This document shows, piece by piece, positions 3,238-30,093 of a DNA stretch of 64,000 bases (position 1 is the stretch's first letter; every line of letters begins with the position of its first letter). The position numbers and the translations under genes were made by a program. The notes below the pieces were generated by a model. It did no database searches, had not been told where the DNA came from, and saw nothing but the letters and a program-made list of their open reading frames with translations. The DNA is taken from the NCBI RefSeq assembly GCF_001039275.2, contig NZ_CP030117.1, forward strand, positions 2,232,001 to 2,296,000. The letters are read 5' to 3'. Source of the DNA: Brevibacillus brevis (GTDB taxonomy: Bacteria; Bacillota; Bacilli; Brevibacillales; Brevibacillaceae).

Positions 3238-4752
3238 TTATTCCGTCACAAACGCGAGTGTCCCTTGCTGGATCAGCTCTTCTGCCTTTACGAGATCAGG
3301 ATACATTTCGCGGTCTTCATGCAGGCGGGGAATCACCCGGCGCAACTGCTCATAGGCTCTGGCTGTACCTGTCCCGAGATCTCCCGAGCCAAAATCGATA
3401 GCTTGTGCTGCTGCCAAATATTCAATAGCAAGCACCTTGCTGACATTCGATACAATCGTGCGAAGCTTGCGAGCAGAAGTCGTACCCATGCTGACATGGT
3501 CCTCCTGATTGGCAGATGACGGAATCGAATCGACCGATGCGGGATGGCAGAGCACTTTGTTTTCAGAAACAATGGAAGCGGCTACATATTGTGTAATCAT
3601 AAATCCAGAATGGAGTCCGCCATTTTCGGTTAAGAATCCGGGAAGACCACTTAGCTGTGGATTGACGAGACGTTCGGTGCGTCTTTCGGAAATATTTGCA
3701 AGCTCAGCGATGGCAATGGCAAGAAAATCAGCTGCGAATGCCATTGGTTGACCATGGAAGTTCCCACCGGAGATGACGTCGCCTGTTTCCGTAAAAAGAA
3801 TAGGGTTATCGGTGACGCTATTGCATTCGCGTGTAACCGTGGTCCATACATACTCGAGCGTATCACGAGTTGCACCATGTACTTGCGGGAGGCAACGAAG
3901 GCTGTAAGGATCTTGGACACGTAGCTCACCCTGCGCTGTGGTACGTTTGCTGCCGGATAAGTGCTGGAGCAAGCGCTTTGCTGATTCCTGCTGTCCTGGA
4001 TGCGGGCGGACGAGATGGAGCTGGGGATCAAACGCTTTTGGAATTCCACGAAGCGCTTCAATCGTCATCGCCGCAATCAATTCAGCGCTTTCAAGCAGTA
4101 CTCGCGAATCATACAAGGCGAGGCAAAGCTGTGCAGTCATTGCCTGTGTACCGTTAATAAGAGCGAGACCTTCTTTTGCCTCCAGTCGAATTGGGGAAAG
4201 ACCCACTTCACTCAGGGCTTCTTTTCCAGATAGCCGCTTACCATTGACAAGCGCTTCACCTTTGCCGAGCATGACCAAAACCATATGAGCGAGAGGGGCT
4301 AGATCGCCGCTGGCACCAAGGGAGCCTTGCTGAGGAATAATTGGATGAACTCCTCGATTGCATAGTTCCACTAGCTGAAGTAATGTTTCTTCCCGAATTC
4401 CCGAATAGCCCTTTGCCAACGCATTGATGCGCAAAGCCATCATCGCACGAACAACTTCAACGGCATAAGGGTCGCCCATTCCGCAAGCATGACTCATAAT
4501 CAAATTTTCTTGCAGCTTGCTTACGTCCTCATCCTGGATCATGACATCGGAGAATTTTCCGAAGCCAGTAGTGATTCCGTATACGACTTCCTGCTGGGAT
4601 ACCATTCTCTCCACCATAGCACGTGAAGCACGAACACGATGCAATGCTTCGTCGGTCAATTGAATGTGAGTGGCCTTTCTTGCAATGGAAACAACATCTT
4701 CGATACGCAATTGATCCCCATCTACTTTTACAACGTTTGCTTGCTGATTCAT
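3238..4752 (-). CDS. hutH: Histidine ammonia-lyase
   Basis: Protein of 504 aa that deaminates L-histidine to trans-urocanate and ammonia, the first step of histidine use. The MIO-forming Ala-Ser-Gly is at residues 147-149 within GSLGASGDLAPLAH, and the catalytic Tyr is in VYGITTGFG (about 58). Length matches B. subtilis HutH (about 508 aa). ATG 4752 is preceded by AAAGGAGGAAATTACAG. No hutU, hutI or hutG gene is present in this window, so the gene appears separated from the rest of the pathway. Its 182-base leader contains a promoter, a mini-ORF and a terminator hairpin described separately. Confidence 0.96.
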   Translation of the reverse strand: MNQQANVVKVDGDQLRIEDVVSIARKATHIQLTDEALHRVRASRAMVERMVSQQEVVYGITTGFGKFSDVMIQDEDVSKLQENLIMSHACGMGDPYAVEVVRAMMALRINALAKGYSGIREETLLQLVELCNRGVHPIIPQQGSLGASGDLAPLAHMVLVMLGKGEALVNGKRLSGKEALSEVGLSPIRLEAKEGLALINGTQAMTAQLCLALYDSRVLLESAELIAAMTIEALRGIPKAFDPQLHLVRPHPGQQESAKRLLQHLSGSKRTTAQGELRVQDPYSLRCLPQVHGATRDTLEYVWTTVTRECNSVTDNPILFTETGDVISGGNFHGQPMAFAADFLAIAIAELANISERRTERLVNPQLSGLPGFLTENGGLHSGFMITQYVAASIVSENKVLCHPASVDSIPSSANQEDHVSMGTTSARKLRTIVSNVSKVLAIEYLAAAQAIDFGSGDLGTGTARAYEQLRRVIPRLHEDREMYPDLVKAEELIQQGTLAFVTE

Positions 4753-4789
4753 CTGTAATTTCCTCCTTTAGCAGAGCAGAGAACGAAAA

Positions 4790-4828
4790 GAGCGAGGGGT
4801 TAGGATATCATCTCCTAACCCCTCGCTC
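4790..4828 (-). terminator. Leader terminator/attenuator hairpin of hutH
   Basis: A 16-bp perfect inverted repeat: arm 4790-4805 and arm 4813-4828, loop of 7 (4806-4812). Read on the minus strand it is followed by TTTTCGTTCTCT, an acceptable U-tract. It lies between the hutH promoter (4941-4968) and the hutH start at 4752, so it would stop transcription before the gene unless disrupted. The loop holds the stop codon of a short upstream reading frame. Confidence 0.75.
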
Positions 4829-4882
4829 GAGAGCATGTATGTGATTGGATAAAAACGTGTAAGCCTGCATTCGTCGCGGCAT
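4808..4882 (-). CDS. Candidate leader peptide of hutH (24 aa)
   Basis: Mini-ORF on the hutH leader: ATG at 4882, stop TGA at 4810-4808. A GAGGA ribosome site (in GTGAGGAAGAACGT) lies eight bases before the ATG. The peptide reads MPRRMQAYTFLSNHIHA followed by LERGVRR, with two His codons (4843-4841 and 4837-4835) just before the 5' arm of the terminator, and its stop codon falls in the hairpin loop. A ribosome finishing the peptide would cover the 5' arm. An in-frame ATG at 4906 has no ribosome site. The arrangement is seen directly; the regulatory function is inference. Confidence 0.45.
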   Translation of the reverse strand: MPRRMQAYTFLSNHIHALERGVRR

Positions 4883-4940
4883 ACGTTCTTCCTCACTTTC
4901 GTTCATGTGCAACTGTCTGATTATTTTAGCTATTGCTATC

Positions 4941-4968
4941 ATTGTATCAAATGCCTACGTGCAGTCAA
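4941..4968 (-). promoter_or_regulatory. Sigma-A promoter of hutH
   Basis: On the minus strand: -35 TTGACT (4968-4963), 16-base spacer, -10 TACAAT (4946-4941). Predicted transcript start is near 4934, giving a leader of about 180 bases before hutH. Confidence 0.7.
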
Positions 4969-5112
4969 GATGATCTTGTCACGGCTGCTTCCCTAGAGAG
5001 CAAAAAACGGGCTTAGTCCATTTTTTCAAACTGGGCGAGAGTCGTCTCTCGAGTTGGATAAATGTCATACCATGTACTGTGTTAGTTTATCCGAAAGGAC
5101 GTGTAGAATTCC

Positions 5113-6153
5113 GTGGAAAAGCGACGTAAGATGCCGCCTATGCCTACCGCACTCCCAAGGCGTCCTAAAGAAATGCCGAAACCGCCTTCTTCAGCGATGC
5201 CATTGCCGTCTCCATCGATGCCGTCACCTATGAAGCCTTCTCCTGAAAAGCCCAAGTCGGAAAGTCCAATCAATCCGAATCATTCTATTCCTGCGCGCCC
5301 AATGCCACAAAAACCGATCATGCCTGCTCCCAATCTGGCTAACCCGAATGTGCCGAACGTGATGCCGCCAAATCGGATGCCAGCGAATCCAATGCCACCA
5401 AATCCGATGCCACCAAACCTCAAGCCGTCGAATCCAATGCCCATGCCCATGCCACCGAATCGGATGCCAGCAAACCCTATGCCTAACGCTTCACCGAATG
5501 TAAGGCCAAATGAGAGCCCAAACATGAAGCCAAATGTAAGGCCCAATGTGAGACCAAACGTGCGACCAAACGTGCGACCGAATGAGAGTCCAAACATGAG
5601 ACCAAATGTCAGACCGAACGTAAGGCCAAACGAAAGTCCAAACATGAGGCCAAATGTTGGACCAAATGTAAGGCCAAATGTCAGACCAAATGTGCGGCCG
5701 AATGAAAGTCCAAACATGATGCCAAATTTAAGACCCAATATCAGACCAAATGTGCGGCCGAATGAAAGTCCAAACATGATGCCAAATCTTAGACCAAATA
5801 TGAGACCGAATGTCAGGCCGAATGCGCGACCGAATGAGAACATAGGAAGAGATCTGGAGCTGTTCCTGTTCAAATTCCAATTCCATATGGACCGGATGCA
5901 GTATTTCCGCCACAAATGCGATGAGCATCGTGAAAATCGCCGCAAATACATGGAATACCGCAAACATTACAAGCATCATGAACGGAGAATGCACCATTAT
6001 CATGACCGTTGCCAATTATGGAATGACGGTAGCAGTTCCTTTGGTCGAGGCTCATCATCTTCATCTTCGGGTGGCAGTAGCTCTTCCTCCGGATGCCATT
6101 GCGGACATAGACAGGGTCATAGACGAGGGCGTGGCTGCGGATGTTCATTTTGA
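5113..6153 (+). CDS. Pro-Asn tetrapeptide-repeat protein, possible spore-surface protein
   Basis: Protein of 346 aa with GTG start at 5113 (AAAGGACG upstream). I do not recognise a family. Residues 1-85 are Pro/Met-rich; about 85-240 consist of four-residue units of the form (R/S)PN(V/M/E), arranged in longer blocks; about 245-305 is a His/Arg/Tyr/Met-rich segment predicted to be helical; the last 40 residues are Ser/Gly-rich and end with Cys-His-Cys and CGCSF. No signal peptide or membrane segment. Low complexity, a Cys-rich tail and His/Tyr-rich stretch resemble spore coat or exosporium proteins, which is inference only. CATACCATGTA at 5066-5076 resembles a sigma-E/K -10 element. The strand assignment rests on the start signal, the terminator at 6165 and the ordered non-repeat C-terminus; the opposite frame is also open. 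Confidence 0.7.
   Translation: MEKRRKMPPMPTALPRRPKEMPKPPSSAMPLPSPSMPSPMKPSPEKPKSESPINPNHSIPARPMPQKPIMPAPNLANPNVPNVMPPNRMPANPMPPNPMPPNLKPSNPMPMPMPPNRMPANPMPNASPNVRPNESPNMKPNVRPNVRPNVRPNVRPNESPNMRPNVRPNVRPNESPNMRPNVGPNVRPNVRPNVRPNESPNMMPNLRPNIRPNVRPNESPNMMPNLRPNMRPNVRPNARPNENIGRDLELFLFKFQFHMDRMQYFRHKCDEHRENRRKYMEYRKHYKHHERRMHHYHDRCQLWNDGSSSFGRGSSSSSSGGSSSSSGCHCGHRQGHRRGRGCGCSF
5500..5840 (+). repeat. Tandem 12-bp coding repeats
   Basis: About 28 in-frame copies of a 12-base unit close to AGACCAAATGTG, encoding Arg-Pro-Asn-Val and variants, with a higher-order block where every third to fifth unit is GAGAGTCCAAAC (Glu-Ser-Pro-Asn). Third-codon positions differ between copies, so this is an old, selected repeat rather than a very recent expansion. 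Copy number is likely to vary between strains. Confidence 0.85.
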
Positions 6154-29690: not shown

Positions 29691-30093
29691 GCAGGAAATG
29701 TGGGTAGTCGCTGCCGCAATCGTTTTAACGATTGGTGGTAGAGGAAAGTCCAGGCTCGCCCAGGCTGAGATGCCTGGAGTGTTCGTACCTGGTGCAAGCC
29801 AGGGCAGTGAGGTGCTGAGCCTTGCTGACGGCGTGGAAAGGGCTCTCTCTGAGGCCCGAGTACGCTGAAAGTGCCACAGAAACGTAGCTTTTCTGGCGAC
29901 AGAAAAGATGGAACGCGGTAAACCCTGCGAGCGAGAAACCCAAATTAGGTAGGGGAACCGTCCTGAAGGAATCAAACGGAAAGGACGGATGGTATCTTCG
30001 GATGCCATAGATAGATGGCTACCGCTCTTGGTGCGAGGGATTGCCCCGCTTGAAGCACGGGAGAGACAGAACCTGGCTTATAGCATTTCCTGC
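29691..30093 (+). ncRNA. rnpB: RNase P RNA, Bacillus (B) type
   Basis: Catalytic RNA that removes the 5' leader of tRNA precursors. P1 is formed by GCAGGAAATG (29691-29700) and CATTTCCTGC (30084-30093). Conserved blocks are visible: GAGGAAAGTCC (P4 5' strand, from 29741), GAAAGTGCCACAGAAAC, GGAACGCGGTAAACC, GCGAGAAACCCAAATT, GGTAGGGGAACC and GATAGATGGCTACC. Overall layout matches the B-type of low-GC Gram-positives. The ends are set from P1 pairing and may be off by a few bases. Confidence 0.95.

Follow-up and report, generated by a model that had tools for sequence, protein, structure and literature searches.

To our knowledge, the known amino-acid attenuators turn biosynthesis on when the ribosome stalls. 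In the pyrBI attenuator of Escherichia coli, translation into the terminator acts without an antiterminator RNA and the signal is pausing of the polymerase at low UTP; in TnaC, a conserved arrest peptide senses free tryptophan and blocks Rho. The terminator of pyrBI lies inside its leader peptide, and termination in E. coli drops from ~90% to <10% when a ribosome occupies a stop codon near the terminator, both according to the part of the source available to us (PMC4824070). For the tlrB leader of Bacillus subtilis, the accessible portion of one study describes polymerase pausing that synchronises ribosome and polymerase (PMC6851288). Attenuators with histidine leader peptides have been reported before his operons in three groups of Firmicutes, and the sections of that report on hut, leaders, catabolism and Brevibacillus describe none before hutH and connect hutH, in another genus, with a regulator that binds DNA (PMC9413887). 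Histidine leader peptides have likewise been reported before hisS/hisZ in bacilli, in an article whose main text contains no word beginning with “hut” (PMC2965389). In B. subtilis, availability of histidine opens a terminator that precedes hutH (PMC7430163, in the part at hand). Among the matches listed for a leader peptide before hutH, mostly from outside subscription journals, no title or opening of an abstract contained such a description. A histidine-codon attenuator with reversed sign before hutH, for which we propose a mechanism below, would be a new form of leader-peptide attenuation.

Architecture of the hutH leader

The window analysed here, a stretch of 64,000 nucleotides of the Brevibacillus brevis chromosome, carries a gene that we take, from similarity, to be hutH, preceded by a compact leader (Table 1). 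A sequence-only reading had placed on the minus strand a promoter, a mini-ORF with its ribosome site, two histidine codons and a 16-bp hairpin with the stop codon in its loop, and all of these were found in place.

Table 1. Features of the hutH leader and gene in the window
Feature	Positions	Strand	Details
Promoter, sigma-A type, TTGACT-16-TACAAT, extended TG	4941–4968	−	10/12 consensus matches
Helix P0	4781–4904	−	4904–4897 with 4788–4781
Hairpin P1	4841–4896	−	4896–4883 with 4858–4841; covers mini-ORF ribosome site and start
Mini-ORF ribosome site GAGGA	4890–4894	−	7 nt 5′ of ATG
Mini-ORF MPRRMQAYTFLSNHIHALERGVRR, 24 codons + TGA	4808–4882	−	ATG 4882–4880, TGA 4810–4808
His codons 14 (CAC 4843–4841) and 16 (CAT 4837–4835) of the mini-ORF	4835–4843	−	
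Intrinsic terminator P2	4790–4828	−	Stem 4828–4813/4805–4790, 16 pairs; 7-nt loop 4812–4806
hutH ribosome site AAAGGAGG	4762–4769	−	Preceded by conserved CTCTGCTNTGCT
hutH, histidine ammonia-lyase, 504 aa	3238–4752	−	Start ATG 4752

The mini-ORF ribosome site pairs with the 16S end at −12.0 kcal/mol, and the two His codons start 15 nt (CAC) and 9 nt (CAT) before the 5′ arm of the terminator. The stop codon sits inside the P2 loop, and the frame thus crosses the 5′ arm. P2 is followed by TTTTCGTT, with a U-rich tail from 4789; its pairs show two-sided changes among relatives, and the second promoter hexamer shows few changes across the aligned Brevibacillus leaders. Two further helices surround the mini-ORF. 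The 3′ strand of P1 ends at the first His codon, and P0 links the stretch 5′ of the mini-ORF ribosome site to bases after the terminator, closing a three-way junction with P1 and P2.

Pattern scans of the window returned 5 promoter-like sites versus 3.5 in shuffles and 4 terminator-like sites versus 2.5, and by themselves do not decide whether this promoter and terminator set beats chance. The fold energy of the leader RNA is −64.1 kcal/mol versus −40.4 in shuffles (sd 3.6, z −6.6). Because of this fold energy, the presence of the parts in 22 aligned leaders and the covariance model matches in 38 of 39 genomes (see below), the set stands above chance. At the gathering score, Rfam reported RNase P alone in the whole window (a bacterial class B RNA at 29696–30085, plus strand, 262.7 bits) and no T-box, riboswitch or His leader RF00514; at E values up to 5, the region 4700–5000 gave six sub-threshold matches, five of them to microRNA families and none convincing. 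A known riboswitch, T-box or other Rfam leader is ruled out on the first of these searches.

Several observations concern the surroundings of the leader. The segment CTCTGCTNTGCTAAAGGAGG before hutH (4762–4782, minus strand) is strongly conserved, and in some sister genera (e.g. locus L150) it is able to pair with the mini-ORF ribosome site AGCGGGG. The histidine degradation genes of this genome are split between two loci: a single urocanase gene, hutU, lies ~2.26 Mb from hutH (locus L284), with neighbours that we presume from their sequence, unscanned, to be hutI and an AraC-type regulator. Given that distance, the other genes of the pathway lie outside the control of the hutH leader. A divergent gene at 5113–6153 (plus strand, 346 aa), which we would guess to encode perhaps a spore-coat protein, has many MPN/PNV-type repeats and a His- and Cys-rich end; its upstream region (~5000–5085) is also conserved between species.

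Conservation and folding of the leader in Brevibacillus

A hutH match was found in 26/26 Brevibacillus genomes, and in 25 of them it is a close ortholog (79–100% identity); the 26th, G024, has only a relative at 54% identity. Of the 39 genomes of the order, all but G024 gave a full-length match to a covariance model of the leader (38/39). Antisense terminator matches occur in the model alignments A3 and A4, and neither alignment entered the counts. Aligning leaders of related Brevibacillus, the check that the sequence-only reading had suggested, gave a divided picture. By reading of the alignment, a ribosome site of the GAGG/GGGG type, the ATG and the terminator are kept in all 22 aligned leaders. 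The frame of the mini-ORF relative to the terminator, on the other hand, varies between species, and in 7 of 25 Brevibacillus leaders the frame reaches the terminator arm without a His codon.

The P0/P1/P2 three-way junction appears in most single folds of Brevibacillus leaders; it was derived from such folds together with mean pair probabilities and then counted on the same sequences. Over 18 Brevibacillus leaders, 88.1% of cells pair in the three-helix fold versus 41.5–53.6% when it is slid by 1–3 columns, a figure that is favoured because the fold was chosen from the very sequences counted. Cells with two-sided changes number 26 versus 10.3 in shuffles (0/500), and pairs with two-sided changes 11 versus 7.1; pair types are no more varied than in shuffles (37 versus 34.4, 70/500). 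In P0, 92.4% of cells are paired and one pair is changed on both sides. On the first MAFFT alignment, RNAalifold recovered the terminator and, besides it, no more than a weak hairpin around the ribosome site of hutH.

Much of the conservation of the Brevibacillus leader sits at the RNA level, in P1, P0 and P2. The conserved RNA (P0, P1 and the terminator) might be the target of a protein or ligand, with the mini-ORF secondary. The proportion of paired cells and the two-sided changes above shuffles would fit such a target, as would a P1-like hairpin that lies over the mini-ORF start codon in Paenibacillus too. We nevertheless consider it quite improbable, since the pair-type variety stays at shuffle level in a fold taken from the same sequences, P0 requires bases that are made only after the terminator, i.e. 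after read-through, unrelated lineages (by reading) have the mini-ORF plan without this fold, and the leader contains no Rfam family at the gathering score.

Distribution of HutP and of mini-ORFs entering the terminator

Searches with PF09021, for which a control search was positive in B. subtilis, found HutP in 0/26 Brevibacillus genomes, the whole genome of the window included. The earlier remark that no hutP is present, made from the window, is true of the whole genome and of the 26 Brevibacillus genomes, and these searches rule out that HutP had been overlooked. HutP is also absent in 12/13 further genomes of the family and in the genome of Ornithinibacillus caprae; the one family genome with a match, G032, is flagged for 7% contamination. 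Counted over the order, 37 of the 38 genomes with the leader are without HutP. The leader of O. caprae is a weak match to the covariance model and shows the same plan in unrelated sequence (MFIIHHQRKPIKNIKGGLV), with the stop codon in the terminator loop.

The survey was extended to samples from two further orders, which makes three orders in all. On the Ornithinibacillus side, 199 genomes of the order comprised 118 with hutH, 82 with HutP and 38 with hutH and no HutP; on the Paenibacillus sacheonensis side, the corresponding numbers were 50, 28 (27 over the cut-off) and 24 in 198 genomes. The regions upstream of hutH were inspected in all 62 newly surveyed genomes without HutP and, as controls, in 39 of the 106 genomes with both hutH and HutP. 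Under the single fixed rule applied, a mini-ORF had to start at an ATG with a ribosome site and extend in frame into the terminator; frames ending 5′ of the arm did not qualify. By this rule, the 102 loci of the non-HutP group fall into 75 with a mini-ORF running into the terminator, 21 with a terminator alone, 5 with a weak terminator and 1 with none. Among the 102 are 39 loci of Brevibacillus and its sister genera, each with a mini-ORF, as well as the locus of one genome with HutP, G032 (L147); the newly surveyed genomes without HutP contribute a mini-ORF in 36 of 62 cases.

None of the 39 HutP-bearing terminators has such a mini-ORF, a control biased by the abundance of UAG stops in HutP sites. 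We relied instead on dinucleotide shuffles, by which about a quarter of such frames are expected by chance: the 39 leader clusters yielded 32 representatives with a mini-ORF versus 10.3 expected, the clusters having been delimited by eye with the frames already known. Loci L205 and L208, where the hairpin lies in an apparent upstream gene, were left out; counted as misses, they bring the figure to 32/41 clusters. Also outside the clusters are L194, L195, L203, L209 and L213 (weak hairpin) and L245 (no terminator). L142 and L153 repeat L038 and L039, and the regions of L187 and L192 end at contig ends. The mini-ORF plan is, on the genomes compared here, associated with the absence of HutP in many lineages of Bacillus relatives.

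Some loci show individual arrangements. At L191 (G080) the mini-ORF has no stop in the terminator and continues in frame into hutH. HutP lies ~39 kb from hutH at L221 and L222, and beyond the 3′ end of hutH at L267–L269 (G333, G395 and G446, of the Paenibacillus order), where the hairpin is unlike other HutP-type terminators. Conversely, L244, L253, L261 and L263 have HutP-type terminators (GAAGCCGGTACC or similar) in genomes that gave no PF09021 match to HutP (G263, G358, G424 and G428). UAG motifs immediately precede three of these four terminators, and the HutP gene of these genomes is lost, diverged or missing from the assembly.

Histidine codons in the mini-ORFs

Mini-ORFs were picked by ribosome-site energy, blind to histidine. 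In the 32 representatives, His accounts for 38 of 434 codons before the terminator, against a null of 13.4 (sd 4.0; 0/5000 draws) from shuffled leaders that also contain such a frame. The resulting z score of 6.1 compares with 2.4 for Arg, −2.2 for Thr and 1.9 for Gln, no residue other than His lying beyond an absolute z of 2.4. Compared with the two remaining frames of these leaders (33 clusters, 9 of which have no His codon before the arm), His is 2.8-fold up, and the excess persists without Brevibacillus and Paenibacillus. A His codon precedes the arm in 21 of the 32 representatives, in 19 of them with a start at least 12 nt before it; as a rule of thumb, a ribosome stalled that far upstream should leave the arm free.

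The composition differs between lineages. Mini-ORFs of the sister genera are often His-rich (MRKRRRHPRQLHRHDRATGLGTDS, MRRIGRHRHRNHSIKRTKGLGNIS, MHLTCRVIHVHHSIELLKGLGNHS, MVHIHRHCHDNQIYIWPRG), and others there have one His or none (e.g. MRVTCQYKCDMSTIYQGNKGLGIRS). In Paenibacillus, a DTGQSH motif recurs in 15/15 mini-ORFs of one group, with nine other non-HutP genomes of the order outside it. Because the motif keeps its silent sites too and lies within the P1-like hairpin, the case for codon reading is less strong in this clade than it seems at first sight.

Measured by the refuting condition of the sequence-only reading, a lack of conserved His codons among relatives, Brevibacillus taken alone gives a mixed answer and leaves the histidine reading undecided, and the wider survey tips towards it. 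The contending view is a translation-coupled antitermination without amino-acid specificity, in which any ribosome would open the terminator, the His codons would be incidental, and hutH would follow general translation or mini-ORF initiation, perhaps gated by P1. It would explain why the 7 Brevibacillus leaders and the 11 representatives with no His codon before the arm keep their mini-ORF, and why some of the His-less leaders (e.g. L190, L193, L215 and L220) have the stop at the loop. Weighed against a His excess that no random draw reached and that other residues do not share, this view seems to us unlikely.

Position of the stop codon and search for an antiterminator

In the 32 representatives used for the codon counts, the mini-ORF ends within the 5′ arm in 6 cases, in the loop in 7, in the 3′ arm in 12 and past the hairpin in 7. 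The gathering of stops at the loop and possible antiterminators were analysed on a second list of 32 representatives, which differs from the first in having several Brevibacillus and Paenibacillus members and another member for D09, and in omitting D07, D21, E3 and E4. Within a narrow window at the terminator loop, an in-frame stop was found in 25 of 32 representatives of this second list versus 18 of 64 other frames (P 3.5e-6).

In the same representatives, no stretch of the leader pairs with the 5′ arm beyond shuffles (mean z +0.58), and with pairing at chance level an antiterminator of the classical his/trp type is ruled out. Classical attenuation, where stalling at His codons frees an antiterminator and hutH would be made when histidine is short, shares with these leaders the His codons ahead of a terminator. 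It is nonetheless hardly credible here, given this result and a sign that would be wasteful for a degradative gene.

At high histidine, a ribosome might also be held at the loop stop by a TnaC-like nascent peptide that senses free histidine, and so block the terminator. Such an arrest would account for the stop codon at the loop, and its logic fits a degradative gene and would give induction as well. By reading of the listed peptides, no C-terminal residues are common to different lineages, and the Brevibacillus ends are read in different frames; a conserved arrest peptide is ruled out on these grounds, and we regard sensing of this kind as very improbable.

Discussion

The excess of mini-ORFs, their enrichment in histidine, the stops at the loop and the lack of an antiterminator strand make the ribosome itself the probable antiterminator, and with no antiterminator RNA the logic would be the reverse of that in his-operon attenuation. 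In the mechanism that we propose, the polymerase would transcribe the mini-ORF followed by a strong intrinsic terminator overlapping its end, which we expect to work in vivo. When tRNA-His is charged, a ribosome translating the mini-ORF would run into the terminator and cover the 5′ arm, and the polymerase would continue into hutH. With uncharged tRNA-His, the ribosome would stall at the His codons just 5′ of the arm, the terminator would form and no hutH would be made: without an antiterminator, stalling at the His codons could not open the terminator, and only a ribosome past them could. We give a probability of roughly 60% to this reading, with the hutH leader acting as an antiterminator that depends on translation and responds to histidine codons, and with stalling turning hutH off.

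The device would be a brake that halts histidine degradation when histidine is scarce. Its signal would be the charging of tRNA-His and not histidine as an inducer; induction, if any, would come from elsewhere. The term “histidine-sensing” used in the sequence-only reading is for this reason better replaced by sensing of charged tRNA-His, and the sign given there, with translation of the mini-ORF turning hutH on and a stalled ribosome turning it off, agrees with the absence of an antiterminator strand in the 32 representatives. The broader claim of that reading, a His-codon attenuator in place of HutP, draws support from the His z score, the stops at the loop, the missing antiterminator and the absence of HutP; it is strained by the Brevibacillus leaders with no His codon, by the shifts of frame, and by P1 and P0, which have no place in the model. 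As a guess, P1 may pause the polymerase or gate initiation, keeping ribosome and polymerase together.

The polymerase of B. subtilis has been reported to outrun ribosomes, which counts against the model. On the B. subtilis tlrB leader, moreover, a ribosome no longer keeps the terminator from forming once it has completed the peptide and departed, as far as the portion of the study at hand goes, so timing would have to be tight in the hutH model, and this is a real objection otherwise (PMC6851288).

On a wider scale, we think the chances slightly better than even that the loss of HutP in many lineages of Bacillus relatives goes with a His-codon attenuator of reversed logic, in which finishing and not stalling prevents termination, and that this ribosome-only, protein-free control arose more than once. 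If true, the same ribosome sensor would have had its sign reversed simply by running the frame into the terminator, so that stalling turns degradation off. It would account for the control of hutH in many genomes without HutP, provide a repeated natural case of one regulator replacing another, and offer a test of the closeness of ribosome and polymerase on short leaders in Gram-positive bacteria.

Comparison with known systems

The his leader attenuators of E. coli, with candidates in the Bacillus cereus group and others, resemble the hutH leader in having His codons in a short frame followed by a terminator (PMC9413887, PMC2965389, in the parts available). They differ in that stalling frees an antiterminator and turns biosynthesis on, whereas the hutH leader has no antiterminator, its frame enters the terminator, and stalling should turn degradation off. 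In those leaders, as far as these parts describe them, three to five His codons stand in a row or stretch; hutH leaders often have one to three, scattered.

TnaC is likewise a leader peptide controlling an amino-acid-degrading operon, but the hutH leader peptides are not conserved and their terminator is intrinsic. In the tlrB (yxjB) leader, a leader-peptide ribosome prevents a terminator in a Gram-positive host, as the hutH model would have it; unlike in that model, the signal is an antibiotic together with an arrest motif, and stalling means ON (PMC6851288, in the part seen). The B. subtilis hut terminator has the same place before hutH and would share the opening when histidine is available. 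Its opener is HutP, an RNA-binding protein with NAG sites, whereas in Brevibacillus HutP is lacking and a mini-ORF overlaps the terminator.

With the pyrBI attenuator of E. coli the hutH leader has in common that translation into the terminator would prevent its formation, with no antiterminator RNA; unlike in pyrBI, the signal would be a ribosome stalled at His codons, the gene is degradative and the hosts are Gram-positive. The hutH leader thus falls outside the classical his/trp type, the HutP-controlled terminators, the Rfam leaders and the TnaC-like peptides. It has the short frame overlapping the terminator and the His enrichment of leader-peptide attenuators in general, and its frame runs through the 5′ arm as in the pyrBI type.
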